41,416 nt of DNA from the IMG/VR virus record IMGVR_UViG_3300032893_000128, positions 1 to 41,416 of that record. One strand, 5' to 3'. Every line of letters starts with the position of its first letter. The stretch's first letter is position 1. The position numbers were made by a program, and so were the translations under genes. The notes under the pieces are model-generated. The model was not told the origin of the DNA and did no database searches. It was given only the letters and a program-made list of their open reading frames with translations. The DNA is from a virus. Of this stretch, positions 1 to 41,416 are shown piece by piece.

Positions 1-73
1 ACGGCCTACGACTCGGCCACCGTCACGGCCTACGGCTCGGCCACCGTCAGGGCCTCCGACTCGGCCACCGTCA
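1..73 (+). repeat. Terminal overlap: identical to 41344-41416
   Basis: The first 73 bases equal the last 73 bases. Merging them keeps the 41086 gene in frame with the 1-762 gene. This fits a circular map, or a circularly permuted genome, of about 41,343 bp. Because both ends lie in a repeat array, the match alone does not prove closure and units may be missing. Confidence 0.7.
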
Positions 74-294
74 GGGCCTACGGCTCGGCCACCGTCAGGG
101 CCTCCGACTCGGCCACCGTCAGGGCCTCCGGCTCGGCCACCGTCACGGCCTACGACTCGGCCACCGTCACGGCCTACGGCTCGGCCACCGTCAGGGCCTC
201 CGACTCGGCCACCGTCAGGGCCTACGGCTCGGCCACCGTCAGGGCCTCCGACTCGGCCACCGTCAGGGCCTACGACTCGGCCACCGTCACGGCC
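1..294 (+). repeat. 24-bp coding tandem repeats, left block (about 12 units)
   Basis: The unit is GCC ACC GTC A[CG]G GCC T[AC]C G[AG]C TCG. Only three bases vary, each between two states, giving Thr/Arg, Tyr/Ser and Asp/Gly. In order the units read TYD, TYG, RSD, RYG, RSD, RSG, TYD, TYG, RSD, RYG, RSD, RYD. The five-unit string TYD-TYG-RSD-RYG-RSD therefore occurs twice, a higher-order repeat that points to expansion by unequal crossing over. The copy number is uncertain because assembly can collapse such arrays. Confidence 0.95.
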
Positions 295-2844: not shown

Positions 2845-3105
2845 GTGCAGATCGGAGACCGGGTCAAGTCCAAGATCAACGGTTTCGCCGGGATCATCAC
2901 CGGCACCACGGAATACCTCAACGGCTGCCGTCAGCACCTCGTCGCGCCGGAGGCGCTCGACAAGGACGGCAAGGTCATGGACGGCATCTGGACGGACGAG
3001 CAGAACCTGGGCGTGGTCGAGGGCCAGGTTTTTCCCAACCCATTCGCCAAGACCGCCAAGGCAACCGCGGGCGGCCCGGACAGCACGAGTCGTCGCGTCC
3101 GCTAG
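2845..3105 (+). CDS. KOW/SH3-like phage protein, 86 aa
   Basis: The GTG start at 2845 is preceded by TGAAAGGACC at proper spacing. The N-terminus (I-G-D-R-V-K-S-K-I-N-G-F-A-G-I-I-T-G) looks like a small beta-barrel that is common in phages: G-D-x-V-K-D-x-V-S-G-F-x-G followed by E-Y-L-N-G-C and a poly-aliphatic strand. The last 20 residues are Ser/Arg-rich and low complexity. It is probably a small nucleic-acid-associated protein; the specific role is unknown. Confidence 0.7.
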   Translation: MQIGDRVKSKINGFAGIITGTTEYLNGCRQHLVAPEALDKDGKVMDGIWTDEQNLGVVEGQVFPNPFAKTAKATAGGPDSTSRRVR

Positions 3106-3207
3106 CTCCCCGACTCAGGCCAGCGCCGTCCTCCACCGGCCCTGGCCCCAGGTGGGGAGCCTGGACATCGAGAGCCCCGCCGGCGGGATGCCGGTCAGTC
3201 CGTCAAG

Positions 3208-3232
3208 GGGGGCCGGCACAGCACCGGCCCCC
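3208..3232 (+). promoter_or_regulatory. 9-bp G+C hairpin touching the ribosome binding site of the exonuclease gene
   Basis: GGGGGCCGG (3208-3216), loop CACAGCA, CCGGCCCCC (3224-3232). The GGAGG ribosome site follows directly at 3233-3237, eight bases before ATG 3246. It has no U-tract, so it is a weak candidate for a classical terminator. It could pause transcription or affect ribosome access. It lies in a 140-bp gap, the first real gap in the early operon. Confidence 0.6.
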
Positions 3233-3245
3233 GGAGGTCCGTCAT

Positions 3246-4214
3246 ATGGCAGGCGTTCGTGCCGCCGGGATCGTTCAGAACACGCCGGAATGGTTGGCCT
3301 TCCGGCAGGGCCACTTCGGCGGCTCGGACGCATCGATCGTCGCCGGCGAGCGGCCGAGCCTAGTGAAGCTCGTCAGCGAGAAGCAGGGCCGCCTGGAAGT
3401 CGAGGAGCCGGACGCCGAGACGCAGCTGCTGTTCAAGCTCGGCCACCTGATCGAAGACGATCTGATGGCGATCTACCCCGACCTCAGCGGCCGCCAGGGA
3501 GTCCGCTCGCGCGGCATCTTCACCTCGCCCGAATGGCCCGTCGCGGCCTACTCGCCGGATGGCGAGACGCGCAAGGGCGCGGAGCGGCGGGGCATCAGCT
3601 TCAAGCTCAGCAAGTCCTCCAAGTGGCCGACGGCCCTGGCTGCGGGCGAGCTGGTGCCGGGCGACGTGCTGGCCCAAGAGCAGCACGGGATGTACGTCAT
3701 GGGCTGGGACGCCGTCGACGTCCTGGTGCTGCTCTACGGCGCGCCGAAGTTGATCGAGCTGCCCCGCGATGACGAGTACATCGGCAACCTGATCGATCTC
3801 GAGCGGGAGGCGTGGGCGCACGTCGAAGACGGCACGCTGCCCGAAGAGATCGATGGTTCGGAAGAGACGCGCCACACGCTGAGCCGGCTGCATCCGACCG
3901 ACTGCGGTCCCGTCCTGCCCCGCACGCTTCATTTCGTCGAGCTGGCCCGCGAGCTGGCCGCCGCCCGCGCCCTGGTCAAGGAAGCCGGGGCCGAAGAGGA
4001 CCGGCTGGCGAACACGCTCGCTTCGATGCTCGGGGACGCGGCGGGCGTCGAGGGCGTGCTGACCTATCACCGGGGCAAGGAGTTCGCCTCGGTCAACCAC
4101 CGGCAGGTCGTTGAGTCGGCGACTGCCGCGGGGTTGGATCTGTCGCCGTACATCGAAGCCGCCACAACCATGCGCAGCACCCGACCGCTGCGCGTCATCC
4201 TCAAGGAGTCCTGA
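3246..4214 (+). CDS. YqaJ-like viral recombinase exonuclease
   Basis: The 322-residue protein opens with Q-N-T-P-E-W-L-A-F-R...G-G-S-D-A-S (residues 11-30). It then has G-H-L-I-E-D-D (66-72), S-P-D-G (103-106) and Q-E-Q-H-G-M-Y-V-M-G-W (144-154). This is the order of motifs in YqaJ/lambda-exonuclease family 5'-3' exonucleases of the PD-(D/E)xK fold. The E-x-K element expected about 13 residues after S-P-D-G reads S-F-K (118-120), so the usual catalytic Glu may be replaced. The C-terminal 120 residues are helical. GGAGG (3233-3237) sets the start. The next gene is a likely annealing partner, as in lambda Exo/Beta-type pairs. Confidence 0.75.
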   Translation: MAGVRAAGIVQNTPEWLAFRQGHFGGSDASIVAGERPSLVKLVSEKQGRLEVEEPDAETQLLFKLGHLIEDDLMAIYPDLSGRQGVRSRGIFTSPEWPVAAYSPDGETRKGAERRGISFKLSKSSKWPTALAAGELVPGDVLAQEQHGMYVMGWDAVDVLVLLYGAPKLIELPRDDEYIGNLIDLEREAWAHVEDGTLPEEIDGSEETRHTLSRLHPTDCGPVLPRTLHFVELARELAAARALVKEAGAEEDRLANTLASMLGDAAGVEGVLTYHRGKEFASVNHRQVVESATAAGLDLSPYIEAATTMRSTRPLRVILKES

Positions 4215-4215
4215 C

Positions 4216-5370
4216 GTGTCCGATTTGGTGCCCATGCCGGAGCCGGAAGAGCGCGGCCTGGCGAGGTTCAGCGGGGCGTTCTCGCTGGCCGAGATGTCAG
4301 ACGAGCAGTTCAACCGCAACGTGGACCTGCTGCGAAAGGCGCAGGATCGGCTGCTCAAGATCATGCACGACGTGATGCGCGAGGGCGTCGACTACGGCAA
4401 CGTGCCGGGCGTCGACAAGCCGGTCCTGGCCCAGCCTGGCGCCGAGACGCTGTGCAACCTGTTCAACCTCAAGGCCGAGCTGCTGCCGGTCTTCCTGCCG
4501 GGCGACGGCGAGACAGCCCCCGCCGTCCGCTGGGACGTGGCCTGCAACATCCACGCCGGCAGCCTCGAAGGTCCCATCGTCGGGACCGGCCATGGGACCT
4601 GCAACTCCTGGGAGGCCAAGTACCGCTACCGCAACGCCGAGCGGATCTGCCCCAAGTGCGGCAAGCCCGCGATCATCAAGGGCAAGGCCGAGTATGGCGG
4701 CGGCTGGCTGTGCTTCGCCAAGAAGGGCGGCTGCGGGGCGAAGTTCGCCGACGGCGACCAGGCGATCGAGGGTCAGCACCTCGGCCAGACCGAGAACCCC
4801 GACCCGCACGACCTCTCCAACACGATCCTCAAGATGGCCGAGAAGCGCGCCCACGTCGACGCGACCAAGCGCACGACCGGCGCGTCGGCCGTGTTCACCC
4901 AGGATCTCGAAGAGCAGGGCGATCTGTCGGACGCTCCCGCGCCCAAGCCCAAGCCATCCGCCCGCGAGCGGGTGGCCCAGCGTGCGGCTGCGGCCCGGAA
5001 CGCCCCTACGCCCGAGCCGCCGGACGACTTCGGAGGCTGGGTCGAAGGGGAAGTGATCGGCGAGCCTGCCCCGGTCGCAAAGCCGCAGCTAGAGCGTCTC
5101 CGCTCGCTGCTCGTCGACGCCGTAGACGCGGCCGGACCGGAAGGCCAGCACGGCGCGAGCGCCGAGCAGCTCGCCGCCATTCGCGCCCTGGCCCTGCCCG
5201 GTGGCGGCCGTCCGATGGGGCTGCTGTTCAACCTGGCCCGGGACGCTAACGGTCGCTGGCAGCTGACGTCCGCGCACGCCGACGCGCTGCTGGCCGCACA
5301 TCGTTCGATGGGTCCGGACTTCGGACCCGCCTGGTCTGCGTTGGCCGACGAGCTCGGCCAGGAAGGATAG
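4216..5370 (+). CDS. Putative recombination/annealing partner with internal zinc ribbon
   Basis: GTG 4216 follows AAGGAG by seven bases. The 384-residue product begins with a helical region (D-E-Q-F-N-R-N-V-D-L-L-R-K) and then G-V-D-Y-G-N-V-P-G-V-D-K-P and Q-P-G-A-E-T-L-C. A zinc ribbon follows (C-P-K-C-G ... C ... G-G-C-G), then S-N-T-I-L-K-M-A-E-K-R-A-H-V-D-A-T and T-G-A-S-A-V-F-T-Q-D. I recognise this as a conserved phage family usually next to YqaJ-type exonucleases. Its position suggests a single-strand annealing or ssDNA-binding role, but that is inference. The Pro/Ala-rich linker (about 240-290) separates a C-terminal domain of about 90 residues. Confidence 0.6.
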   Translation: MSDLVPMPEPEERGLARFSGAFSLAEMSDEQFNRNVDLLRKAQDRLLKIMHDVMREGVDYGNVPGVDKPVLAQPGAETLCNLFNLKAELLPVFLPGDGETAPAVRWDVACNIHAGSLEGPIVGTGHGTCNSWEAKYRYRNAERICPKCGKPAIIKGKAEYGGGWLCFAKKGGCGAKFADGDQAIEGQHLGQTENPDPHDLSNTILKMAEKRAHVDATKRTTGASAVFTQDLEEQGDLSDAPAPKPKPSARERVAQRAAAARNAPTPEPPDDFGGWVEGEVIGEPAPVAKPQLERLRSLLVDAVDAAGPEGQHGASAEQLAAIRALALPGGGRPMGLLFNLARDANGRWQLTSAHADALLAAHRSMGPDFGPAWSALADELGQEG

Positions 5371-6604: not shown

Positions 6605-6939
6605 CCACCGTCCGACGCTCCAGCTTCCACCCACGTCGCATCATCCCGGCGGCAGGCGTAGCTTCCCCCTCGGCTGCGCCTGCCCCGCTCCCCGAAGTGC
6701 TGAGCCACTGGATCACCGTCCGCGACCTGGTCGACGTGGCCTATCGCATCGGCGGGGAGGAGGCACTCGACGTGCCGATCACCGTGACCGCGGCCATCCC
6801 CGGAGACGGGACGCACCACTGGCACGGATCGACCCTGCATCCGATCGCGGTCAGTATCGGCTGCAACGGGCCGGAGATCACGCTGTCGCTCACGCCCGGA
6901 CAGGCGGCGCGGCTGGCGGTCGAGGCGGAACGGCCATGA
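6601..6939 (+). CDS. Hypothetical protein, 112 aa
   Basis: A basic, Pro/Ala-rich N-terminus (residues 1-35) leads into a small alpha/beta domain with V-R-D-L-V-D-V-A-Y-R-I-G-G-E-E and P-I-T-V-T-A-A-I-P-G-D-G. The C-terminus has L-S-L-T-P-G-Q-A-A-R-L-A-V-E. No family is recognised. ATGA overlaps tie it to the clamp gene upstream and the methyltransferase downstream. Confidence 0.65.
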   Translation: MTTVRRSSFHPRRIIPAAGVASPSAAPAPLPEVLSHWITVRDLVDVAYRIGGEEALDVPITVTAAIPGDGTHHWHGSTLHPIAVSIGCNGPEITLSLTPGQAARLAVEAERP

Positions 6940-7844
6940 TGCCGCCCGTTCTGGAGACGCCGCGAACCGAGCGCATCTGGACGCCCGATGAGGATTGGCA
7001 GCGGACGCCGCTCGGCCTATACGTTCCACCCCGTCCGAGCAAGCGGGACCTGTACTCCGAGCCGGTCGCTGTGGACCTGTTCTGCGGCGCCGGTGGCATG
7101 GGTCTCGGCTTCCATCAGGCGGGTTTCCACGTCGCGGCCGCGATGGACCACGACGCGGACTGCGCGATCACCTACATGCACAACCTGGCCCGCCCAGGCG
7201 TCCGGATTCACTGCGACACCCCGGAGAGCGAGGCCCGGTTGGAGAAGGCGATTGCCTCCAACTGGAAGCTCAACGCAAAGTCGAAGGCTCGGCTTGCCGA
7301 CGGGAGCGTTGTGCCCTACCCGCACATGACCGTAGCGGGCTCCGGCTGGATCAAGAACCAGCCCGCGAGCCATCGGGGCTGCGAGCACTTCTTCTTCGGC
7401 GACATCCGCAACTTCAAGGGCGAGCAGATCCTCGACGCCCTCGGCCTGGAGAAAGGCGAGATAGACGTCGTCACGGGCGGTCCGCCCTGCCAGGGGTTCA
7501 GCACCGCCGGCCGCCGCAACGTCCTGGACCCGCGCAACTCGCTGGTGTTTGAGTTCGCCCGCCTAGTGGTCGAGCTCGCGCCGGCAGCGTTCGTGTTCGA
7601 AAACGTGCCTGGGATCATCTCCATGGTCACGCCCGAAGGCACGCCCGTCATCGACGAATTCGCCGCCTACGTCGCCTCAGGCGGCTACGGCTCCGTGAAG
7701 TCGATCAAGTCCGCTCTGGTCGGCAACGATCAGGCCCGCATCGTGCGGCGCGAACGGCCGATCAAGAAGGCCGATGACGAACCCGATGATGACGAGGGCG
7801 AGGACGAGGAGGCGCAGTTCGAGCAGACTGCGATGGCCCTATGA
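6936..7844 (+). CDS. C5-cytosine DNA methyltransferase lacking a recognisable C-terminal part
   Basis: Motif I is D-L-F-C-G-A-G-G-M-G-L-G-F (47-59). The catalytic motif IV is G-G-P-P-C-Q-G-F-S with Cys 185. Motif VI is F-E-N-V-P-G (221-226). A roughly 60-residue insert lies between motifs I and IV. After residue 265 there is no clear motif VIII, IX or X and no usual target-recognition domain; instead the protein ends in a very acidic tail (D-D-E-P-D-D-D-E-G-E-D-E-E). It is 302 residues long, against roughly 350-420 for complete enzymes. It may be inactive, or may need a partner such as the second methyltransferase at 11291. It likely modifies phage DNA against restriction. ATG 6936 or 6939. 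Confidence 0.85.
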   Translation: MMPPVLETPRTERIWTPDEDWQRTPLGLYVPPRPSKRDLYSEPVAVDLFCGAGGMGLGFHQAGFHVAAAMDHDADCAITYMHNLARPGVRIHCDTPESEARLEKAIASNWKLNAKSKARLADGSVVPYPHMTVAGSGWIKNQPASHRGCEHFFFGDIRNFKGEQILDALGLEKGEIDVVTGGPPCQGFSTAGRRNVLDPRNSLVFEFARLVVELAPAAFVFENVPGIISMVTPEGTPVIDEFAAYVASGGYGSVKSIKSALVGNDQARIVRRERPIKKADDEPDDDEGEDEEAQFEQTAMAL

Positions 7845-8068: not shown

Positions 8069-8502
8069 GGAGCGTCCAAGAGCTGGCATGGGCAGCTGGG
8101 ATCTTCGAAGGCGAGGGCACGATTAGGATCAACCGGCCGAACAAGCACGACCTCGGCCATTTGGCTGTCTCCATCGTCTCAACTGACCCGCAAGTGGTCG
8201 AGTTCTTCATGGCCCGATGGCCGGGTTATCACAAGCGCGCCACTGGCCTAGGACCGCGACAGAAGCCGGCCTGGGTATGGGCCGTCGCATCCAGAAAGGC
8301 CGCTGCTTTTCTCCGCGAGGTGCTGCCCTACTTCCGCCGGAATCTTGTGCGGGAGAGAGCCTGGACGGCGCTCGTGTTCCAGGAAAGCAAGGCGATGGGG
8401 TCAGCGAATCGGAGCCTCGCATACCGCGAGGAGCAGTTCAACGCCTACCACTGGATGCGCGAGCTGAACGTCCGCGGCGTTGATCCGGAGCCCCCGCGAT
8501 GA
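8065..8502 (+). CDS. LAGLIDADG-type endonuclease, single motif
   Basis: Residues 7-20 (L-A-W-A-A-G-I-F-E-G-E-G-T-I) are a LAGLIDADG motif of the W-x-A-G-x-x-E-G-E-G kind. At 145 residues with one motif it would act as a homodimer, cutting a long near-palindromic site. The rest has the alternating strands of the family (L-A-V-S-I-V-S-T-D-P-Q-V-V-E-F-F; W-V-W-A-V-A-S-R-K). It is free-standing: no intron or intein was recognised around it, so it resembles a freestanding homing gene. ATG 8065 makes an ATGA overlap; an in-frame start 15 bases earlier is less likely. Confidence 0.75.
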   Translation: MRSVQELAWAAGIFEGEGTIRINRPNKHDLGHLAVSIVSTDPQVVEFFMARWPGYHKRATGLGPRQKPAWVWAVASRKAAAFLREVLPYFRRNLVRERAWTALVFQESKAMGSANRSLAYREEQFNAYHWMRELNVRGVDPEPPR

Positions 8503-9374
8503 CCAAGGCCGCCCCGCTCACCTCCTGGCACGCCCAGCGCCACGCCAACGACGGGACGCGGGTGTTCAACCGCGAGTGGCGAGCGCATGGGACGCGCGAC
8601 GGCAGCGGCGCTCCTGACTCGAACTACGGCAACGAGCCGCTGCTGACGCCCGAGTTGGTGGCCGACGTTCAGGCTCGCCACGCGGCCGGCCAGAGCGTTC
8701 GGAAGATCGCAGGCACCTATGGCGTGTCGTTCAAGACGATCGCCCGCTACCTGACCGGCGAGGTCAAGGCACGCGAGCCGCGAGCGCCAGCCGCTGTGCC
8801 CGTCGAGCCGTTCGTTCCGCTCTGCATGGAGCCCGACGAGCTGGCCGACTGGAACGATCACAACCGGGCCGCCGCCCGACACGGCAAGGCACCCAACCCC
8901 TGCCACGACTGCATGCCCGACTTCGCCCTGGAGATGCGGGCCGAGGGCCGCTGCAACGGCCACCCGCGCGGGGTCGAACCCGGTGAAGACGAGCCGGAAG
9001 AGCCGGCCAGAAAGGACCGTCACATGCAAACCGTTCTAGTCCGCCACGCCTGCGACATGTGCGTGCACAGCCGCGTCTGTGGCCGCCGCGCCTCGATCGC
9101 CAACCTGACGCGGGGTGTAGAGATCGAGACCGACCCGCTCCCGGCAGGACTGACGATCGCGCTCGAAGCCCGAGTGGACTGCGACGCCTACCTGCCGATG
9201 CACAAGAGCCGCGCCAAGGGCTCCGAGCCAGTCCCACAGGGCCAGGGCGAGGCGGAACGGCCTAGGCGCCAATACAGCGCCGAAGCCCTCCAGCACATCC
9301 GCGAGAACGGAGCGAAGGCCCGAGCGGCCGCCCAGGCGCGTCGTCAAGCCCAGGAGGCCGCTGCGGCCGAGTAG
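8499..9374 (+). CDS. HTH plus Cys-motif protein, apparently a fusion of two small genes
   Basis: Residues about 50-88 form a resolvase-type helix-turn-helix (T-P-E-L-V-A-D-V-Q-A-R-H, then V-R-K-I-A-G-T-Y-G-V-S-F-K-T-I-A-R-Y-L). A Cys pair follows (N-P-C-H-D-C-M) with a later C-N-G-H. From residue 176 a new unit begins at an in-frame ATG (9024) preceded by AAAGGACC, the same ribosome site used by other genes here. That unit has C-D-M-C-V-H-S-R-V-C-G-R-R and D-P-L-P-A-G-L-T-I-A-L, which I recognise from separate phage proteins of about 100 residues. So the product may be made both full length (291 aa) and as a 116-aa C-terminal form. Likely DNA binding. Confidence 0.65.
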   Translation: MTKAAPLTSWHAQRHANDGTRVFNREWRAHGTRDGSGAPDSNYGNEPLLTPELVADVQARHAAGQSVRKIAGTYGVSFKTIARYLTGEVKAREPRAPAAVPVEPFVPLCMEPDELADWNDHNRAAARHGKAPNPCHDCMPDFALEMRAEGRCNGHPRGVEPGEDEPEEPARKDRHMQTVLVRHACDMCVHSRVCGRRASIANLTRGVEIETDPLPAGLTIALEARVDCDAYLPMHKSRAKGSEPVPQGQGEAERPRRQYSAEALQHIRENGAKARAAAQARRQAQEAAAAE

Positions 9375-9406: not shown

Positions 9407-9592
9407 ATGCATCAGGGGCGCCCGTGGTGGGACGTCGAGCCGGATCCCGAGCCGCCGCGCTGTGAGCTGTGCGGGGCGACGGGCGTGCCGCTGTTCGCCG
9501 GCCATGACCAGCGGGGCAAGCCCGTCGATCGGTGCGAAGACATGGCGGCATGTCGCCAGAGACGCGAGAAGAGGGAGAAGGTGACGGCGTGA
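9407..9592 (+). CDS. Small zinc-binding protein, 61 aa
   Basis: Motifs are C-E-L-C-G-A-T-G and, after about 20 residues, C-E-D-M-A-A-C, a C-x2-C ... C-x5-C pattern. A charged helix (R-Q-R-R-E-K-R-E-K) ends the protein. GAAAGAGGG precedes the ATG. The stop overlaps the GTG of the helicase gene (GTGA at 9589), so the two are coupled and may work together; its role is unknown. Confidence 0.65.
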   Translation: MHQGRPWWDVEPDPEPPRCELCGATGVPLFAGHDQRGKPVDRCEDMAACRQRREKREKVTA

Positions 9593-10908
9593 TCGATCGT
9601 TTGCCGCCGCAATCCCTCGACTCCGAACAGGCCGTGCTCGGCAGCATCCTGATCGACCGCGACGCCATCGTCGAGGTGGCGGACTTCCTCAGACCCGCCG
9701 ACTTTTACCGCGCCGCCAACGGCACGATCTACGCCGCCATGCTCGACCTGTACGGGCGACGCGAGCCGATCGACGTGGTAACGGTGGCGGAGGCGCTGGA
9801 GCGATCGGGCGAGCTCGCCAACGTCGGCGGCCCGAGCTACCTGTCCCAGCTCGGCAATAACACGCCGACCGCGGTCCACGTCGAGCAGTACGGGCGGATC
9901 GTAGAACGCAAGGCGCTCGGCCGCAGCCTCATTCAGGCGGCGGGCAGGATCGCCGCGATCGGCTATGAGGACAGCCCCGACACCTCCGACGCGCTGGATC
10001 GGGCGCAGCAGGAGCTCCTGGCCATCACCGAGCGCCAGTCGAGCTCGTGGGCACAGTTGCGCTCGCTGCTGCCCGACGCCTACGACTACTTGGGGCGCCT
10101 GGCCGAAGGAGCGCTCATCCAGGGGATCGCGTCGGGCATCGCCAGCCTCGATCGACTGACCGGCGGCTTCATGCCTGGCGACTTGGTGGTCCTGGCAGCC
10201 CGGCCATCGGTGGGCAAGACGGCGTGCGCGATCCAGGTCGCCCAGGGCGCGGCCCGCGACGGCATCGGGGTCGGCCTGTTCAGCCTCGAGATGTCCAAGG
10301 AGCAGATCGCACGCCGCATCCTGGCCGGCGCCGCCGGTATCGACACCCACATGCACGTCAGCCCGGATTCGCTTACCGAGGCGGCCCACGTCGCGCAGTC
10401 GAAGTCGGACCTGCCGCTGTGGATCGACGACAGCCCGACGGCAACGCCGCTCGAGCTGCGGACGCGAGCCCGACGGCTGGCAGCGTCGCAGCGTTGCCTC
10501 GGTCTCCTGATCGTGGACTACCTCCAGCTGGCCCATTGCCCGAAGAGCGAGAGCCGCGAGCGTGAGGTGGCCGACATCAGCCGCCAGCTCAAGGCACTGG
10601 CGCGCGAGCTCCGGCTGCCGATCCTGGTCCTTTCGCAGCTGAACCGTGACCAGGAGCGCCGTGGTGGCGCGCCGCGGCTGTCGGACCTGCGCGAGTCGGG
10701 GGCGATCGAGCAGGACGCCGATGTCGTGCTGTTTCTGTGGCGATCCAAGGAGGCCGAGTCGACCGAGATCACCCTGACCATCGCCAAGCAGCGCAACGGT
10801 CCCGCCGGCGTGGACCTGTCGCTCCATTTCGATCCGGTGCGACAACGGTTCGAGCCGGTCATGCGCGGCCGCGACGACGAGCCTGCCCCTTACTGGAGTG
10901 ACCGATGA
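9589..10908 (+). CDS. dnaB: Replicative DNA helicase, DnaB family
   Basis: The 439-residue protein has the DnaB N-terminal domain (P-Q-S-L-D-S-E-Q-A-V-L-G-S-I, residues 7-20), the linker, and a RecA-fold motor. The motor has Walker A A-R-P-S-V-G-K-T-A (204-212), F-S-L-E-M-S (231-236), Walker B L-L-I-V-D-Y-L-Q-L (306-314), L-S-Q-L-N-R and D-L-R-E-S-G-A-I-E-Q-D-A-D. Length and motif order are complete. The start is GTG 9589. It unwinds the fork as a hexamer; the initiator-like gene at 12385 is its probable loader or recruiter. It ends two bases before the stop of the opposing gene at 10911. Confidence 0.95.
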   Translation: MIDRLPPQSLDSEQAVLGSILIDRDAIVEVADFLRPADFYRAANGTIYAAMLDLYGRREPIDVVTVAEALERSGELANVGGPSYLSQLGNNTPTAVHVEQYGRIVERKALGRSLIQAAGRIAAIGYEDSPDTSDALDRAQQELLAITERQSSSWAQLRSLLPDAYDYLGRLAEGALIQGIASGIASLDRLTGGFMPGDLVVLAARPSVGKTACAIQVAQGAARDGIGVGLFSLEMSKEQIARRILAGAAGIDTHMHVSPDSLTEAAHVAQSKSDLPLWIDDSPTATPLELRTRARRLAASQRCLGLLIVDYLQLAHCPKSESREREVADISRQLKALARELRLPILVLSQLNRDQERRGGAPRLSDLRESGAIEQDADVVLFLWRSKEAESTEITLTIAKQRNGPAGVDLSLHFDPVRQRFEPVMRGRDDEPAPYWSDR

Positions 10909-10910
10909 GC

Positions 10911-11084
10911 CTACTTCTTGCGCCCCGGTTTCCCGAGCGACTGCGCGCGGTAACGCTCGACCTGAGCGGGCGTGACGGTCCACAGCGGGCCGACGCGCAC
11001 GGCCTTGAGGCTGCCCCGCGCGATGGCGCGGCGCAGCACGGACGGATCGAGCCCGAGCGATGCGGCGGCTTCGATGAGCGTCAT
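10911..11084 (-). CDS. Excisionase/MerR-type HTH protein, 57 aa
   Basis: Read on the minus strand, the protein begins M-T-L-I-E-A-A-A-S-L-G-L-D-P-S-V-L-R-R-A-I-A-R-G-S-L. It continues with V-R-V-G-P-L-W-T-V-T-P-A-Q-V-E-R-Y, the classic winged HTH of excisionases and AlpA-like regulators, and a basic G-K-P-G-R-K-K end. Its ATG lies three bases after the stop of 11088-11267, so the two form an operon from the promoter at 11294-11322. It converges on dnaB, whose stop is two bases away. With no integrase in the genome it is more likely a transcription regulator than a true excisionase. The plus-strand frame here (10905-11294) is a shadow. Confidence 0.75.
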   Translation of the reverse strand: MTLIEAAASLGLDPSVLRRAIARGSLKAVRVGPLWTVTPAQVERYRAQSLGKPGRKK

Positions 11085-11290: not shown

Positions 11291-12388
11291 ATGAATGTAC
11301 ACGCGGGCGCGCACAATGTCAAGACCTTCGGCAGCCTCTTCGCAGGCATCGGCGGGATCGACCTCGGACTCGAACGAGCGGGCTGGACGTGCCGCTTCCA
11401 GGTCGAGTGGGACGCCTTCTGTCAGCGAGTGCTCGCCGCTCACTGGCCCGACGTGCCCCGCTACGGAGACATCACGACCGTCGATTGGAGCGGAGTCGAG
11501 CGAGTCGACCTGTTGGCCGGCGGCTTCCCCTGCCAGCCCGTCAGCGGGGCCGGAAAGAAGCAAGCCCAAGCGGACGCGCGGTGGCTCTGGCCAGAGTTCG
11601 CCCGTGCCATTCGCGCACTACGACCCCGCCTCGTGCTCGTGGAGAACGTCCCAAACCTCCTTGCTGTCAACGGAGGCTCAGCCTTCGGAGACGTACTCGG
11701 CGACATGGCCGCGTGCGGGTATGACGCGGAGTGGGACTGCATACCAGCGGCGGCCGTTGGTGCCCTACATGACCGAGACAGGGTCTTCATCGTGGCCTAC
11801 CCCATCAGCGAGCGAGTTCGAGCCTGGGGACATCGCCAAGACGGTGGCCCGCAGGGAGCGGCAGAAGGCGCTCCATCGGAACGGCAATGGCTTCGGCCTA
11901 ACCCTGGCGATGGCCGTGCGCTGGCCGAGGCCGACAGCGACGGACAGCCACGGGCACGGCTACACCAGAGATCAGGGCGACCCGGAGAAACCCCGCCTGA
12001 CCCTCACAGGAATGGCTCGCCGATGGCCGACGCCGACGGTGGACGGCGCGAACCAGGGCGCGAATGCCCGAGCATCGGGGGACTTCCAGAGTTTGAGCCG
12101 AGCCGTGGTCCACGGGATGAGGGGACGCCTCCAGACGCCGAGCGTGGCGGACGCAATGGGCGGACACCGGACGCGGAGTGGGGACCGCTCGGACGAGCCG
12201 TTGCTTTCCAAGCAGGCGCAACTCTTGGACGGAGTGACTACTGGCTCACTGAACCCGAGGTGGGTCGAGTGGCTAATGGGGTTCCCGCTCGGATGGACCG
12301 ACTTAGGTCCCTCGGAAACGCGGTCGTCCCGCAGGTCATCGAAGTGATCGGCCGCCAGCTCCTCGCGGCGCTGGAGAGTGCGGCATGA
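11291..12388 (+). CDS. dcm-like: C5-cytosine DNA methyltransferase (frame A of a dual-coding locus)
   Basis: The 365-residue protein has motif I S-L-F-A-G-I-G-G-I-D-L-G-L (15-27), motif IV G-G-F-P-C-Q-P-V-S with catalytic Cys 81, motif VI V-E-N-V (117-120), motif VIII D-R-D-R-V-F-I-V-A (161-169) and motif X G-N-A-V-V-P-Q-V (342-349). All core motifs are present, unlike the gene at 6936. Residues about 175-320 are Gly/Arg/Asp/Pro-rich but contain the M-A-D-A-D-G-G-R-R-E and A-D-S-D-G-Q-P-R-A-R segments common in phage enzymes of this type. The same DNA in the +1 frame encodes another protein-like sequence (11295-12347). Likely anti-restriction modification. The start codon lies inside the leftward promoter. 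Confidence 0.9.
   Translation: MNVHAGAHNVKTFGSLFAGIGGIDLGLERAGWTCRFQVEWDAFCQRVLAAHWPDVPRYGDITTVDWSGVERVDLLAGGFPCQPVSGAGKKQAQADARWLWPEFARAIRALRPRLVLVENVPNLLAVNGGSAFGDVLGDMAACGYDAEWDCIPAAAVGALHDRDRVFIVAYPISERVRAWGHRQDGGPQGAAEGAPSERQWLRPNPGDGRALAEADSDGQPRARLHQRSGRPGETPPDPHRNGSPMADADGGRREPGRECPSIGGLPEFEPSRGPRDEGTPPDAERGGRNGRTPDAEWGPLGRAVAFQAGATLGRSDYWLTEPEVGRVANGVPARMDRLRSLGNAVVPQVIEVIGRQLLAALESAA
11294..11322 (-). promoter_or_regulatory. Sigma70-like promoter for the leftward HTH operon
   Basis: On the minus strand TTGACA (11322-11317, perfect -35), 17-bp spacer, TACATT (11299-11294, 4/6 -10). The predicted start is about 20 bases upstream of the 11267 ATG, with AAAGGAG between. It overlaps the start codon of the methyltransferase gene on the plus strand, so the two transcription units may interfere. 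Confidence 0.75.
11295..12347 (+). CDS. Overlapping second-frame protein within the methyltransferase gene (frame B)
   Basis: The +1 frame stays open for 350 codons. Its first 105 residues are Ser/Arg-rich, as expected of a shadow. From about residue 107 it has features I recognise from separately annotated phage proteins: Y-D-P-A-S-C-S-W-R-T-S-Q, T-W-P-R-A-G-M-T-R-S-G-T-A-Y, several W-P-T-P motifs (S-S-S-W-P-T-P-S-A-S and R-R-W-P-T-P-T-V-D-G-A-N), and L-N-P-R-W-V-E-W-L-M-G-F-P-L-G-W-T-D-L near the end. Both frames carrying conserved motifs suggests genuine dual coding. How it is initiated is unclear: ATG 11295, an internal start, or a frameshift are possible. Function unknown. Confidence 0.55.
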   Translation: MYTRARTMSRPSAASSQASAGSTSDSNERAGRAASRSSGTPSVSECSPLTGPTCPATETSRPSIGAESSESTCWPAASPASPSAGPERSKPKRTRGGSGQSSPVPFAHYDPASCSWRTSQTSLLSTEAQPSETYSATWPRAGMTRSGTAYQRRPLVPYMTETGSSSWPTPSASEFEPGDIAKTVARRERQKALHRNGNGFGLTLAMAVRWPRPTATDSHGHGYTRDQGDPEKPRLTLTGMARRWPTPTVDGANQGANARASGDFQSLSRAVVHGMRGRLQTPSVADAMGGHRTRSGDRSDEPLLSKQAQLLDGVTTGSLNPRWVEWLMGFPLGWTDLGPSETRSSRRSSK

Positions 12389-13281
12389 CCAGACGAGCGG
12401 GTCAGCCATCCGAGCGTGAACTGCCGAAGGCGTACCTGCGGCTCGATCCGGACATCGACCAGAAGCATCCCGACCATGGCTGGGACTTTATGCGCCTGCT
12501 GTGCTCGGCGAACCGGCAGCGTCCACGGGGCAGGTTTGCGAGCCGGCTGGCGCTGGAGTCGCTGTTCGGCAGGAAGCTCGTGGCCTGGTTCTACGACCGC
12601 GGCGACATCTGCGACCTGGACGATGGCCGGGTGCTCGTGGTCGGCTGGGACAACTGGCAAGAGGGCGATCTGACCGTCGCAGAACGGGTCAGGCGAACCC
12701 GTGGTGGAGGCGATCCTGCGTTACTTAGTAACGCGGACCCGCGTTACATTGTAACGCCCGAGAGCGTTACCGAGAAACGTTCCTCTGCGTTACATGATGC
12801 CCAAAAAGGGGCCGAAAACGGGGCTTCCTCACACGAAGACCACGTCTTAAGTGAATCTCTATCTCTACCGTACGGTGGTAGAAACAAGACATTAGGGCGT
12901 GAGACGCGGTTTGCGCGCGCCCAGCACGACGATGCCGATCCGGCCTTCGCCTGCCGGCAATGGCTGGCCGCCCACGGTGCGCACGTGACCGAAGGCGACG
13001 GCTATCACCGCAAGCTCGCGCAGCTCGTGGCGACGGACACGGGCAAGACGACGGGGGACGTACTGGCTGCCTTCGAAACGCTGCGGGCTCGTGGATGCAA
13101 GACGGCGAAGCAGTACGTGATGGGCGCGGAGGATCTGCTCTTCCCTGTGCCACGGTCGAGCGAGCGTGACGCGGCAGCAGCACGCGCCGAGGAAGAGGCG
13201 AAGCGTAGGGCGGCGAAGGCGCGCGCCTACCTCGTGGACGATGGCTCGGAGTTCGCGAGCAGCGAGGGGCCGGGTCAATGA
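12385..13281 (+). CDS. Replication initiator/helicase-loader-like protein with internal origin
   Basis: Residues 17-104 carry Y-L-R-L-D-P-D-I-D-Q-K-H-P-D, L-L-C-S-A-N-R-Q-R-P-R-G-R-F, R-G-D-I-C-D-L-D-D-G-R-V-L-V-V-G-W-D-N-W-Q-E-G-D and T-V-A-E-R-V-R-R. This is a phage replication protein N-terminal domain resembling winged-helix primosomal (DnaD/Rep-like) domains. Residues about 110-175 are a low-complexity linker coded by the iteron array and a more A+T-rich stretch. Residues 180-255 form a second helical domain (W-L-A-A-H-G-A-H-V-T, K-L-A-Q-L-V-A-T-D-T-G-K-T). By analogy with lambda O, the first domain would bind the iterons and the second would recruit DnaB. That is inference. Confidence 0.65.
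   Translation: MTRRAGQPSERELPKAYLRLDPDIDQKHPDHGWDFMRLLCSANRQRPRGRFASRLALESLFGRKLVAWFYDRGDICDLDDGRVLVVGWDNWQEGDLTVAERVRRTRGGGDPALLSNADPRYIVTPESVTEKRSSALHDAQKGAENGASSHEDHVLSESLSLPYGGRNKTLGRETRFARAQHDDADPAFACRQWLAAHGAHVTEGDGYHRKLAQLVATDTGKTTGDVLAAFETLRARGCKTAKQYVMGAEDLLFPVPRSSERDAAAARAEEEAKRRAAKARAYLVDDGSEFASSEGPGQ
12718..12793 (+). other. Candidate replication origin: 23-bp iterons GCGTTAC inside the initiator gene
   Basis: GCGTTAC occurs at 12718, 12741, 12764 and 12787, each exactly 23 bp apart. Reverse copies GTAACGC at 12728 and 12751 make two perfect dyads (GCGTTAC-N3-GTAACGC). A 5/7 match, GAAACGT, stands at the expected third place (12774). The 23-bp period is not a multiple of three, so the repeat serves DNA and not protein. 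It lies between the two domains of an initiator-like gene, as the lambda origin lies within gene O. Confidence 0.75.
12848..12897 (+). other. Candidate unwinding region with palindrome next to the iterons
   Basis: About 50 bp downstream of the iterons the sequence is unusually A+T-rich for this genome (TTAAGTGAATCTCTATCTCT, later AAACAAGACATTA). It contains the dyad TCTACC-N7-GGTAGA (12864-12882) with the perfect palindrome ACCGTACGGT (12867-12876) at its centre. Its place beside an iteron array fits a duplex-unwinding element. A leftover of relaxed coding constraint in the protein linker is the alternative. Confidence 0.5.
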
Positions 13282-13363: not shown

Positions 13364-13624
13364 ATGCCCACCACTCGCCGCACTGGTCGCCACTTCCGCC
13401 TGGAGCGCGGCCTCCAGGACATGCTCGAAGTGGCGATGGAGTCCAAGCTCACCGCCCGCGTCGATCTCTGGAAGGACCAGATCTCGAAGGGCGAGATCGA
13501 CGAGGAGTTGCGCGAGATCCTGGCTGCCCTGGGCTGGATCAGCTCGCGGGATGACCCGCGGCTTGTGGCCGGTTCAGCCAATCCAGTCAAGGTCTTCATG
13601 CCGGCCCCGGTGCGCGAGTCATGA
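13364..13624 (+). CDS. Small helical protein, 86 aa
   Basis: AAGGAGG lies eight bases before ATG 13364, a near-perfect ribosome site. The protein has a basic N-terminus (T-T-R-R-T-G-R-H-F-R-L-E-R) and a charged helical middle (M-L-E-V-A-M-E-S-K-L-T-A-R-V-D-L-W-K-D-Q). A helix, E-E-L-R-E-I-L-A-A-L-G-W-I, comes next. No family is recognised. It overlaps the next gene by ATGA. Confidence 0.65.
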   Translation: MPTTRRTGRHFRLERGLQDMLEVAMESKLTARVDLWKDQISKGEIDEELREILAALGWISSRDDPRLVAGSANPVKVFMPAPVRES

Positions 13625-13905
13625 CTACGGTCCGAGCCAGCGTCGAGAGCGCATCGCAAGAAGGGCTCCGGGGTCCTGACGAGCGGGCCAAGCTCGGGGG
13701 CTCGGACCAGGCTGGGTCGTTCGTCCCCCGGCGGGCGGCCCAGCCGACTACGGAGCCGTACCGCTGCCCCTGCCTGGAGTTCCAGAGTTCGCCAAAGTCC
13801 CGGTACGTCTGCACCTGCGGCCACGTCTCGGATGAGCACGTCCAGAAGGGCATGTCCCGGTACGCCATCTTCGGGGCCTGCGAGTCCCGGCGGCTCCGGC
13901 CGTGA
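13621..13905 (+). CDS. Small zinc-binding protein, 94 aa
   Basis: The N-terminal half is polar and probably disordered. The C-terminal half has Y-R-C-P-C-L-E-F, then Y-V-C-T-C-G-H-V-S-D-E-H and a final C-E-S. This Cys/His set resembles small phage zinc proteins with a C-x-C-G-H-x-x-x-E-H motif. It overlaps the RuvC-like gene by GTGA, suggesting coupled synthesis with a DNA-processing enzyme. Confidence 0.65.
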   Translation: MTTVRASVESASQEGLRGPDERAKLGGSDQAGSFVPRRAAQPTTEPYRCPCLEFQSSPKSRYVCTCGHVSDEHVQKGMSRYAIFGACESRRLRP

Positions 13906-14420
13906 ACATCCTCGCCATCGACCCCGGCTCGGAGAAGTCGGGCTTCGTCCTGTTCGTCCCGGATCCGCGCACCGAAGACGGCGACGTGGTCGAGTCGGGC
14001 AAGCTGCCCAACGAGCAGCTGCGCTGCCGGATCATCGAGCACGGCTTCGGCCCCGTCGACGTCGCGGTCATCGAGTTCACCCGGCCGCGCGGCGAGCGCC
14101 CCTATCTCCAGCTCTTCGAAGCCCTGTGGTGGGCGGGCCGCCTCGCCGAGTGCCTGGAGCGATCGGCCGTCGTCGAGCGCGTCGAGCGCCTGGATCGGAT
14201 CACGGTCAAGAAGCACCTGACCGGCAAGACGGGCGGCAAGGACGGCAACGACTCGGCTGTCATCCACGCCCTGGTCGATCGCTTCGGCGGCATCGGTGGC
14301 CGGCGCGCCGCCGTCGGGCTCAAAGCCTGCCCTGGCCCGCTCTGGGGTGTCACCGGCGATGCCTGGCAGGCTCTCGCCCTGGCCGTGACGTGGGCAGACC
14401 AGCAGGGCAGCCTGGAATGA
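13902..14420 (+). CDS. RuvC-like Holliday-junction nuclease (RNase H fold)
   Basis: The GTG-start protein of 172 residues begins I-L-A-I-D-P-G-S-E-K-S-G, the first strand of RuvC-type nucleases with catalytic Asp 7. Glu 58 (V-A-V-I-E-F) and Asp 153 and Asp 166 (G-D-A-W-Q-A-L-A-L-A-V-T-W-A-D) stand where the other metal ligands are expected. Phage enzymes of this kind resolve recombination or replication junctions before packaging. The exonuclease/annealing pair upstream would create such junctions. Confidence 0.75.
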   Translation: MNILAIDPGSEKSGFVLFVPDPRTEDGDVVESGKLPNEQLRCRIIEHGFGPVDVAVIEFTRPRGERPYLQLFEALWWAGRLAECLERSAVVERVERLDRITVKKHLTGKTGGKDGNDSAVIHALVDRFGGIGGRRAAVGLKACPGPLWGVTGDAWQALALAVTWADQQGSLE

Positions 14421-24034: not shown

Positions 24035-24313
24035 CTACTCAGCCTGCAGCACAAGGTCTCCGTCGAGCACTGTGTGAGTCACGGTGAGCGAGCGAGGCAC
24101 CTCGATCCTTTCCTTCTGTGTGATCCTCACCTTTCCGCCGCGCTGGCGCACGAGCAGAACGATGGTCTGCAACGCCTTGTCGTATTGATCCGCCGTGTCG
24201 TTAGTGCCCACTGGAAAGAACTCGCCCACGAGTCGTTCGCCAGCCACAACGGCAACGGGCTCCACGAGCTTGGCGTAAATCCTGCGGAACTCCGTGCTTG
24301 GAATCGTGCGCAT
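24035..24313 (-). CDS. Phd-like antitoxin-type protein, minus-strand moron, 92 aa
   Basis: On the minus strand GGAGG is eight bases before the ATG. The N-terminus (M-R-T-I-P-S-T-E-F-R-R-I-Y-A-K-L-V-E-P-V-A-V-V) resembles Phd/YefM-type antitoxins: a short strand, a helix, then E-P-V-x-V and a glycine-linked strand. The second half (K-V-R-I-T-Q-K-E-R-I-E-V-P) is a different beta-rich region. No toxin gene lies beside it. It sits backwards between terminase and portal, as 'moron' genes do, two bases from the terminase stop. The dyad at 24349 may be its own operator. Could be an orphan antitoxin or a regulator. The plus-strand frame from 24029 is its shadow. Confidence 0.65.
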   Translation of the reverse strand: MRTIPSTEFRRIYAKLVEPVAVVAGERLVGEFFPVGTNDTADQYDKALQTIVLLVRQRGGKVRITQKERIEVPRSLTVTHTVLDGDLVLQAE

Positions 24314-24348
24314 CTAGCCGACCTCCAATCTGCTCTTCATGCCTCGAA

Positions 24349-24366
24349 TTGTACACCGCTGTACAA
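24349..24366. promoter_or_regulatory. Inverted repeat TTGTACA-N4-TGTACAA, candidate operator
   Basis: Perfect 7-bp arms with a CCGC spacer lie between the minus-strand Phd-like gene (start 24313) and the portal gene (start 24379). On the minus strand it contains TACAAT, a 5/6 match to the -10 element, with no good -35. A repressor bound here would block that gene's promoter, which fits antitoxin-style autoregulation. It could also affect portal transcription. Confidence 0.55.
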
Positions 24367-24378
24367 CGGGAGAGCGGC

Positions 24379-26550
24379 ATGACCCGACGCGCTCGCCGAC
24401 ACCCGCTCGTCAAGGCGCAGCTCCCGGCCGGGGCCGTCGCCAGTTCCGACATGTCCGGCCTCGCCAACGCTTTGGGCGGTGGCCTCAACGTCACGAGTTC
24501 GCTCGGGCCTGGTATCCCGATCGGCCCCGGCCACCCCGAAGAGCGTAACCCGCGCTGGTTTGATTACCTGCCCGGTGTCAACGTCACGATCAGCCCGCGC
24601 CAGGGCGAGGCGTACAGCTTCGAGACCCTCTACGGCATCGCCAACTCCTGGGACGTGGCCGGCATCGCGATCGAGAAGCGGAAGGAAGAGTTCGTTCGCA
24701 ACGAGCCGACCGTCATCCCCAAGGCGATCCCGGGTCTGACCCAGAAGCAGGCCCAGTTCCGGGCCGACTCGCTGCGCGACGAGATCGCCGACGCGATGGG
24801 CGCGCTCTACCAGCCCGACGGCCAGATGGAATACACGGGCTGGATGACCAAGTACCTCGACGACCTGTTCAAGGGCGACGCCGGCGCGATCTACCTGCGC
24901 GGCAACTACGGCGGTGGCCTGGCCGACGTCGAAGTGATCGACGGCCAGCAGATCAAGCCGGTGCTCGATCTGTGGGGCCGCATCGCCCAGGTTCCGCCCG
25001 GCACGCCGCGCCACGTTCACGAGTGGACGCCCGACAAGATCAGCATCCCGTCCGCGGGCTCCGGCGTCGGAATGGCCTGCGGCGTCTGTGGCGCGGCTCC
25101 GGCCTACACCCAGGTCATCAAGGGCATGATCTGGGGCTGGTATGGGTCCGACGAGATCATCTACCAGCCCCGCTGGCCGCGGACCCGCGGCCCGTACGGC
25201 CATCCCCCGATCGAGGCCATCCTCCTCTCGGCCAATCGCGCCCTGCGGCGCCAGACGCTCGACCTGTCCTGGTACACCGAAGGCTCGATCCCGGCCGCCT
25301 ACCTCAAGGTGCCGGAGGGCTGGAACGCCAAGCAGGCCAACGAGTTCGTGGGGGCGATCTCGGAGCTGCTGTCCGGTAACGACGCCCAGCGCGTCAATCT
25401 GGTCCCGATCCCGGGCGGCGCCAACTCGGGCATCGAGCGGATGCTGCCCGAGCCCAAGAACGACGTCGAGGAGTACCTGCTCCACGTCGGTCTCGCGGCG
25501 TTCGCGGTCTCCCCGATGGAGATCGGCTTCATTCGCTCGTCGGGCGGCGCCGGTCTCGGCGGCAAGGGCGTCGCCGAAGAGCAGACCGACGCCGGCCGCC
25601 AGCGCCAGATCAGCCTGTCGCGCCACATCACCCGGATCTGGAACCGCATCCTCGCGGTCGGCTGGTCGAGCGATCTCGTCCTGTCCTATCCCTCGCTCGT
25701 CGAGCCGAAGGACCGACTCCTCGAGGCCCAGACGCTCCACGAATACTGGGCCATGGGCGCGGTCGCCTCGGACTGGATCGCGGTCAACGTGCTCGGTCTC
25801 GACCCGCCCGGACTCGGCAACACCGTCGTCACGCAGTCGGGGACCGTCGTGCCGGTCCACCAGATCGCCACGGCGACGCCACCCGAGCCGCCGAGCTCCG
25901 CGCCGACCCCCTCGGCCCAACCGGGGGTCAACACCGAGTCGGGCGTCGCCAAGGCCCTGGGCGGCGGCAAGCTCGAGTTCCACGGCGACCTCGCGAAGGT
26001 CGTGCACCGCTACCTGCTGCGCTCCTATCCCGCGAAGGACATCGAGTGGGTGCAGGACCCGGACATCGAATGGGAGTACGAGCCCGACGTCAAGCTTGAA
26101 GACATCAACTACGCCCGCCGGCCGGGCGGCCGCAATGAGGACAAGGTCGACTCGCTGACCGAGTCGCTCAAGGCCGGCGCCTCGATGGACCCGATCGTAC
26201 TGGCCGACTTCGGCGAGCCCAAGTACCGGGTCGCCGACGGCTTCCACCGGACCGAGTCCGCCGAAGACGCGGGCAAGGACGCGGTGCCGGCGTTCATCGC
26301 CCACAAGGTGCCGGGCAAATATCGGAGCCTGGTCATGGGGCCGATGCAGGAAGACTCCACCTCGGTCGCCAAGGCGGACCTGCGGCGCTGGCGCCAGAAG
26401 GCCATCAACGCCTTGAAGCGCGGCGAATCGGCCGCGGTGACGTTCCAGTCCGAGGCGATCGACCCGCTCACGGTCTCGATCGTGTCCAAGGCCCTGGTTT
26501 CCGCGCGGAGCGTCGACGACGTCTGGGCGCTCTTCGGAGGTGGGCGATGA
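24379..26550 (+). CDS. Portal protein with C-terminal ParB-like domain
   Basis: From ATG 24379 the protein has 723 residues. The portal part (about 1-510) has the helical wing, Y-G-S-D-E-I-I-Y-Q-P-R-W-P-R-T-R-G-P-Y-G, P-I-E-A-I-L-L-S-A-N-R-A-L-R-R, and F-A-V-S-P-M-E-I-G-F. A Pro/Ser linker follows (about 515-540). Residues about 555-650 have V-D-S-L-T-E-S-L-K, P-I-V-L-A-D-F-G and Y-R-V-A-D-G-F-H-R-T-E-S-A-E-D-A-G, a ParB/sulfiredoxin-like fold with its D-G-x-H-R motif. The last 60 residues (W-R-Q-K-A-I-N-A-L-K-R-G) resemble portal C-terminal extensions. Twelve portals form the DNA channel. The fused domain may act on nucleotides or DNA, unproven. Confidence 0.8.
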   Translation: MTRRARRHPLVKAQLPAGAVASSDMSGLANALGGGLNVTSSLGPGIPIGPGHPEERNPRWFDYLPGVNVTISPRQGEAYSFETLYGIANSWDVAGIAIEKRKEEFVRNEPTVIPKAIPGLTQKQAQFRADSLRDEIADAMGALYQPDGQMEYTGWMTKYLDDLFKGDAGAIYLRGNYGGGLADVEVIDGQQIKPVLDLWGRIAQVPPGTPRHVHEWTPDKISIPSAGSGVGMACGVCGAAPAYTQVIKGMIWGWYGSDEIIYQPRWPRTRGPYGHPPIEAILLSANRALRRQTLDLSWYTEGSIPAAYLKVPEGWNAKQANEFVGAISELLSGNDAQRVNLVPIPGGANSGIERMLPEPKNDVEEYLLHVGLAAFAVSPMEIGFIRSSGGAGLGGKGVAEEQTDAGRQRQISLSRHITRIWNRILAVGWSSDLVLSYPSLVEPKDRLLEAQTLHEYWAMGAVASDWIAVNVLGLDPPGLGNTVVTQSGTVVPVHQIATATPPEPPSSAPTPSAQPGVNTESGVAKALGGGKLEFHGDLAKVVHRYLLRSYPAKDIEWVQDPDIEWEYEPDVKLEDINYARRPGGRNEDKVDSLTESLKAGASMDPIVLADFGEPKYRVADGFHRTESAEDAGKDAVPAFIAHKVPGKYRSLVMGPMQEDSTSVAKADLRRWRQKAINALKRGESAAVTFQSEAIDPLTVSIVSKALVSARSVDDVWALFGGGR

Positions 26551-41089: not shown

Positions 41090-41416
41090 TCTACTCCGTT
41101 TCGACTCAGGCCGAACTCGATGCCGCGCTGGCGAACGCGGTCCGCAACGATCTGATCGAGATCAAGGGCTCGGGCTACTTGGACCTGCGAGGGAGTGCCG
41201 GTTGCTCCGGCTCGGCCACCGTCAGGGCCTACGACTCGGCCACCGTCACGGCCTCCGGCTCGGCCACCGTCAGGGCCTCCGGCTCGGCCACCGTCACGGC
41301 CTACGACTCGGCCACCGTCAGGGCCTCCGGCTCGGCCACCGTCACGGCCTACGACTCGGCCACCGTCACGGCCTACGGCTCGGCCACCGTCAGGGCCTCC
41401 GACTCGGCCACCGTCA
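41086..41416 (+). CDS. Octapeptide-repeat beta-helix protein, N-terminal part (runs off the window; continues at 1)
   Basis: GTG 41086 overlaps the previous stop (GTGA) and GGAGG stands just upstream. Residues 1-40 (I-Y-S-V-S-T-Q-A-E-L-D-A-A-L-A-N-A-V-R-N-D) form a cap, ending in L-I-E-I-K-G-S-G-Y-L-D-L-R-G-S, a first beta-helix coil. The octapeptides follow to the window end. Joining base 41343 to base 1 (using the 73-bp overlap) keeps the frame and completes the protein at 762. Confidence 0.8.
   Translation, partial: MIYSVSTQAELDAALANAVRNDLIEIKGSGYLDLRGSAGCSGSATVRAYDSATVTASGSATVRASGSATVTAYDSATVRASGSATVTAYDSATVTAYGSATVRASDSATV
41206..41416 (+). repeat. 24-bp coding tandem repeats, right block (about 8.5 units)
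   Basis: Same unit as at 1-294. The variable triplets read RYD, TSG, RSG, TYD, RSG, TYD, TYG, RSD. The last three units equal the first three of the left block, which makes the 73-bp overlap. Confidence 0.95.
41344..41416 (+). repeat. Terminal overlap: identical to 1-73
   Basis: The window ends with the same 73 bases it starts with, in the same reading frame of the repeat gene. This is the signature of a circular assembly, with the caution that both ends lie in a tandem array. Confidence 0.7.

Follow-up and report, generated by a model that had tools for sequence, protein, structure and literature searches.

A gene of the phage analysed here carries, in the middle of its coding sequence, a set of short DNA repeats, and the question that this locus raises is whether the gene harbours the site from which the phage replicates its own genome. 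By the window we mean the whole stretch of viral DNA that was analysed, 41,416 nucleotides in length. Our reading of the sequence is that the site is very probably the main theta-type origin of the phage and that it is built like the origins within gene O of lambda and gene 38 of SPP1 (oriL). An earlier sequence-only reading had already proposed an origin candidate inside an initiator gene, and whatever could be tested supported it, including the out-of-frame array of repeats, the unstable tract, the two-domain protein split at the repeats, the DnaB gene, the C-terminal domain shared with a recognised initiator and the arrays found in other phages.

Iteron array within a putative initiator gene

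The gene and the repeated units (coordinates refer to the window) are the following:

12385-13281, + strand: putative replication initiator gene, encoding 298 aa (N-terminal domain, linker and C-terminal domain)
12718-12734, no strand: iteron 1, GCGTTAC-TTA-GTAACGC, perfect 7-3-7 dyad
12741-12757, no strand: iteron 2, GCGTTAC-ATT-GTAACGC, perfect 7-3-7 dyad
12764-12780, no strand: iteron 3, GCGTTAC-CGA-GAAACGT, degenerate dyad (arms 5/7)
12787-12793, + strand: iteron 4, GCGTTAC half-site, whose right arm matches at 2/7 positions

The motif GCGTTAC stands on the + strand at 12718, 12741, 12764 and 12787, with an exact step of 23 bp, and exact copies on the - strand are found at 12728 and 12751. 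Each 23-bp unit thus consists of a dyad of 17 bp (7-3-7) and a further 6 bp, the arms matching in 7/7, 7/7, 5/7 and 2/7 positions from unit 1 to unit 4, and the array as a whole (12718-12793) occupies nucleotides 334-409 of the gene. The description from which we started, namely four copies in register, two reverse copies forming perfect dyads with 3-bp spacers and a degenerate reverse copy at 12774, was exact in all these points. The motif is also concentrated at this site, as a count over the 41.4-kb window showed: six of the eight copies lie within the array, which leaves two isolated half-sites, at 10950 and 23586 on the - strand. Dinucleotide shuffles of the window yielded a mean of 2.19 copies and a largest value of 6.

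Repeats and coding constraints

Because the array is translated, we considered whether the DNA repeats could be the by-product of a repetitive peptide linker, repetitive peptides being common in such linkers. The four + strand copies fall in codon phases 0, 2, 1 and 0 and the peptide that they encode, PALLSNADPRYIVTPESVTEKRSSALHD, is non-repetitive. Controls in which the protein was held fixed (3000 with its synonymous codons permuted, 3000 with codons redrawn according to the usage of the phage) never reproduced the array: the maximum number of copies of one 7-mer per 100 bp was 6 in the phage and at most 4 in the 6000 randomisations. Codon phase and randomisation had together already refuted this explanation, whose probability we regard as practically nil, and the earlier claim that coding cannot account for the 23-bp period was borne out. 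Among the 34 genes of the window tested, the initiator gene alone gave a repeat signal (P ≤ 0.02). The same test gave no signal for the rep gene of TP901-1, so that a missing signal does not mean a missing origin.

Codon adaptation and GC3 values fall sharply over the linker and recover on both sides of it. Codon adaptation ranges between about -0.25 and -0.8 in the domains and between -1.2 and -1.5 in codons 101-180, which encode the linker, while GC3 takes values of 0.7-0.95 and 0.45-0.6 in these regions, respectively. Such a drop is expected when it is the DNA sequence, rather than the protein, that is under selection.

An unstable tract adjoining the array

The array is directly adjoined on its 3' side by an A+T-rich tract with the following features:

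12796-12895, no strand: candidate DNA unwinding element, the least stable 100 bp of the window, with its core at 12836-12895
12864-12882, + strand: weak hairpin TCTACC-GTACGGT-GGTAGA, containing ACCGTACGGT

According to nearest-neighbour energies, positions 12836-12895 form the least stable 60-bp duplex in the 41.4-kb window (z 5.0), and the 10-bp palindrome ACCGTACGGT lies inside the tract; the A+T-rich tract with a palindrome that the sequence-only reading had noticed is thus real. The hairpin was considered as a third module of the origin and rejected, given that its folding is not above that of shuffled sequences (z -0.58), and its function is doubtful. A further unstable tract lies at 40.4 kb. 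The cumulative GC skew, which had been proposed as a check, showed no clear switch at the array, being flat to about 14.7 kb and falling afterwards, and was uninformative.

The product of the initiator gene

The 298-aa product consists of an N-terminal domain (about residues 30-105) of winged-helix-like topology predicted at low confidence, a linker (about residues 106-180) and a C-terminal helical domain (residues 185-284). It had no match in PHROG, Pfam or NCBIfam, no close relative among the phage, plasmid and viral-contig collections, and no significant similarity to lambda O (BLASTP E 2.2); a scan for the exact 30-bp dyad pattern found none. AlphaFold2 models of the full protein and of the N-terminal domain separately were of low confidence. 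In them the N-terminus runs helix-helix-strand-helix-helix-strand-strand, as a winged helix would, and the helical C-terminus is better defined. A Foldseek fold search with the model returned insignificant matches to winged-helix repressors only, and comparison of the N-terminal domain with a winged-helix initiator family was not significant either (hhalign probability 0.2%).

The C-terminal part was more informative, since a related phage, G004, has an initiator that residues 184-280 match (E 6e-6, and 1e-6 in a second comparison), and this initiator in turn matches phrog_1408 'replication initiation protein' (E 3e-16). The terminase of G004 is 65% identical to that of the window, and the open reading frame after its initiator contains, as read from the sequence, a DnaC/loader-type Walker A motif. 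It is therefore this match of the C-terminal part, together with the surrounding genes and the array in the DNA, and not the N-terminal fold, on which the assignment of the gene as an initiator rests.

Gene neighbourhood and related phages

Genes of replication and recombination are found on both sides of the initiator gene:

9532-10908, + strand: DnaB-like replicative helicase (phrog_19, E 3e-110; Pfam DnaB and DnaB_C), 1.5 kb upstream of the initiator gene
13902-14420, + strand: Holliday-junction-resolvase-like gene of the replication/recombination cluster (phrog_1770, E 8e-7), downstream of the initiator gene

The helicase thus stands where the earlier reading had placed a DnaB. Genes directly after the initiator (13364-13905) had no PHROG match, and no helicase-loader gene was recognised among the window genes scanned, although such a search can overlook loaders that are small or divergent. 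The DnaB gene is flanked by two C5-cytosine methyltransferase-like genes, one of them possibly fragmentary (6936-7844 and 11291-12388); the latter sits between the DnaB and initiator genes and shares 4 bp with the beginning of the initiator gene.

Relatives of the phage were reached through its terminase, which is 45-79% identical to those of other phages. Among these terminase-related phages none had a match to the DnaB of the window, and a related initiator C-terminus was present in G004 only. The terminase had no match in bacterial genomes, and the bacterial matches to the DnaB, at 46% identity or less, came from mixed phyla; no host is called. The portal protein of the window (24298-26550) has a C-terminal ParB-like domain (phrog_2662 and phrog_1033). 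At the ends of the window (1-290 and 41205-41416) we observed tandem repeats of 24/48 bp with an exact terminal overlap of 73 bp, which are either a circular assembly broken within a repeat array or an assembly artefact.

Similar arrays in the initiators of other phages

When 2.9 million viral contigs were scanned for three copies of GCGTTAC at 23-bp steps, four loci emerged (L113, L114, L115 and L116), two of them being initiator regions. In L113 the array lies in the linker of a 291-aa protein matching phrog_9474 'replication initiation protein' (E 7e-34), and in L116, whose protein matches phrog_2447 (E 1e-45), it lies at and just past the end of that protein. The other two loci, near-identical to each other, were set aside because their arrays are intergenic and of different context; they consist of GCGTTAC-TCTTAACTTCGTTAAT in tandem, with a unit of 23 bp, near an FtsK/SpoIIIE-like gene (L114, 3664-3716; L115, 1629-1681), and may represent an unrelated iteron origin in another element.

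We also examined 29 further initiators, picked without regard to the motif. Their linkers contain 40 copies of the core CGT[T/G]AC against 7.2 expected from the flanking sequence (5.6-fold), a count that is not one of independent events because several of the 29 loci are mutually related, and 11 of the 29 linkers hold at least two copies. The arrays of L113 and L116 and the enrichment of the core mean that linkers with repeats in codon phase only, an outcome that the earlier reading had named as refuting it, are not what is seen in other phages.

Examination of phage initiators also identified in their linkers, directly 3' of the iterons, tandem repeats of 5 bp that are out of codon phase (called at P ≤ 0.015 against synonymous shuffles) and that are present in 19/33 phage initiators as opposed to 0/23 neighbouring genes:

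L025, L028 (15487-15530), L113, L116 (about 8615-8640), L119 and L121: loci with 5-bp repeats
L124, L125, L127, L128, L130, L132, L134-L136 and L138-L141: further loci with 5-bp repeats

On the coding strand, most of the repeats are rich in C (CCGAC, GTCCC, CCTTA, CCAAC; GGAGA in L028), and L126 and L133 have 6-bp versions. In the window initiator they were sought and rejected (lag-5 P 0.84-0.87). They may serve in single-strand loading, as DnaA-trios do. This 5-nt C-rich module behind the iterons may be less well described; no phage paper with the repeat strings turned up in a search of the open literature, which proves little. In L113, L122, L124 and L129 the 5-bp repeats are closely followed by perfect hairpins 8-11 bp long, whose loops read TAAC, TTAC or TAC (for example, GAATCACC-TAAC-GGTGATTC). 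In L121, an HNH-endonuclease-like insertion read from the sequence (3001-4323) lies in the initiator linker just upstream of the 5-bp repeats, and is possibly a homing element inside an origin-bearing gene.

Put together, these observations suggest, as a view that we hold tentatively but take seriously, a design widespread among tailed phages, in which lineage-specific dyads with a CGT[T/G]AC core in common lie out of phase in the linkers of winged-helix initiators and are usually followed by a strand-asymmetric C-rich module of 5 nt (6 nt in some), maybe a single-strand loading element. The window could then be one branch of this design, in which the dyads were kept and the module was replaced by an A+T-rich tract.

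Alternative explanations

Whether the dyads serve replication at all has to be weighed against other roles that such elements can play. They could be operators through which the gene product, or another repressor of the phage, controls the transcription of its own operon, with no origin involved. Short perfect dyads are indeed also typical of operators, and genes of the HTH type are present in the early region (8499-9374), but the dyads are internal to a coding region rather than placed at a promoter, a run of four equally spaced units next to the least stable tract is the anatomy of an origin, the copies of GCGTTAC elsewhere in the window are single half-sites and recognised replication-initiator genes of other phages carry the same array, all of which makes this role very unlikely. 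That the dyads form RNA hairpins in the initiator mRNA, or mark a site of recombination or packaging, we judge highly improbable. The single strand folds at the dyads far above shuffled sequences (z -5.35), but any perfect dyad gives such folding, neither the equal 23-bp spacing nor the adjacent unstable tract would be explained, and the resolvase-like and terminase genes are located elsewhere.

A different objection accepts that the site is an origin and holds that it is a second or vestigial one, the main origin lying elsewhere in the genome. SPP1, with its oriL and oriR, offers a precedent (PMC6316719), of the four units in the array one (the third) is degenerate and another (the fourth) a mere half-site, and the tract at 40.4 kb is unstable too. 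Against this, there is no other cluster of GCGTTAC in the window and no other gene with comparable repeats among the 34 tested, and we consider this explanation very unlikely.

Proposed mechanism and significance

If the site is the main origin, the N-terminal domain of the initiator would bind each dyad as a dimer, at four sites of which two would be strong, and the bound array would bend or wrap the DNA and melt the A+T-rich tract at 12796-12895. The C-terminal domain would recruit the phage DnaB onto the melted strand, either directly or via a host loader or an unrecognised one, and host primase and polymerase would then start the forks. An origin inside the gene of its own initiator means that protein and target travel together in recombination, and the protein tolerates the DNA signal because this falls in a flexible linker.

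These results place a candidate origin in a phage that is uncultivated and has an initiator that goes unrecognised in the databases. They also point to a simple rule, in that out-of-frame repeats in a linker together with a local minimum of stability find origins and initiators without the need for homology. Because GCGTTAC at a 23-bp step recurs in the initiators of distant phages, co-variation between recognition domain and iteron becomes directly testable.

Comparison with known origins

Origins inside initiator genes are already known from lambda and SPP1, and what the window adds is an orphan initiator and a new iteron sequence. The resemblance to lambda is close in layout. The annotated iterons of lambda occupy nucleotides 349-433 of gene O, which encodes 299 aa, with steps of 20, 24 and 23 bp; its four inverted repeats bind O dimers, and a 40-bp A+T-rich region opens on O binding (PMC5043065). 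Both systems thus have iterons at steps of 20-24 bp in the linker-coding middle of the gene for a two-domain initiator of some 298-299 aa, with an A+T-rich tract (about 40 bp in lambda) directly beside them. The inverted repeats of lambda are of 18-19 bp and take one dimer each; the window has two perfect and one degenerate 17-bp dyads and one half-site. The iterons of the window are of the GCGTTAC rather than the CCCTC type, its protein has no similarity to O (no match to Pfam PF04492 or to an O-like PHROG), and, whereas lambda has the P loader beside O for the helicase of the host, this phage brings its own DnaB. The earlier suggestion that the case is independent, with iterons and a type of initiator other than those of lambda, therefore stands at the sequence level. 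It is no solitary counterpart of lambda, however, since the layout is common to lambda, SPP1 and many other phages, and the window is another instance of a widespread arrangement.

In the case of the Bacillus phage SPP1, oriL lies in gene 38, where direct repeats are combined with an A+T-rich unwinding element; the phage encodes its own DnaB-family helicase, gp40 (PMC6316719). The window shares with it the repeats and A+T-rich candidate unwinding element within the initiator gene and the phage-encoded helicase in the module. SPP1 also has a loader, gp39, and a second origin, oriR; neither was recognised in the window, for the loader among the genes scanned. The window combines the anatomy of lambda with the own-helicase arrangement of SPP1.

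The initiators of actinophages and Firmicutes phages (phrog_2447, phrog_9474 and phrog_1408) likewise have an N-terminal DNA-binding domain and out-of-frame dyads in the linker, with the CGT[T/G]AC core in 11/29 and GCGTTAC arrays at 23-bp steps in two further ones, and the C-terminal domain of the window protein is common to a recognised member of the phrog_1408 family (G004). The window protein nevertheless matches none of the three families, neither over its full length nor in its N-terminal part, and lacks the 5-bp C-rich repeats that most of them have behind the iterons. Finally, the iteron origins of plasmids such as P1, F, R6K and RK2 also present regular initiator sites next to an A+T-rich tract; theirs are mostly direct repeats that bind monomers (PMC5043065), whereas those of the window are dyads inside the initiator gene.
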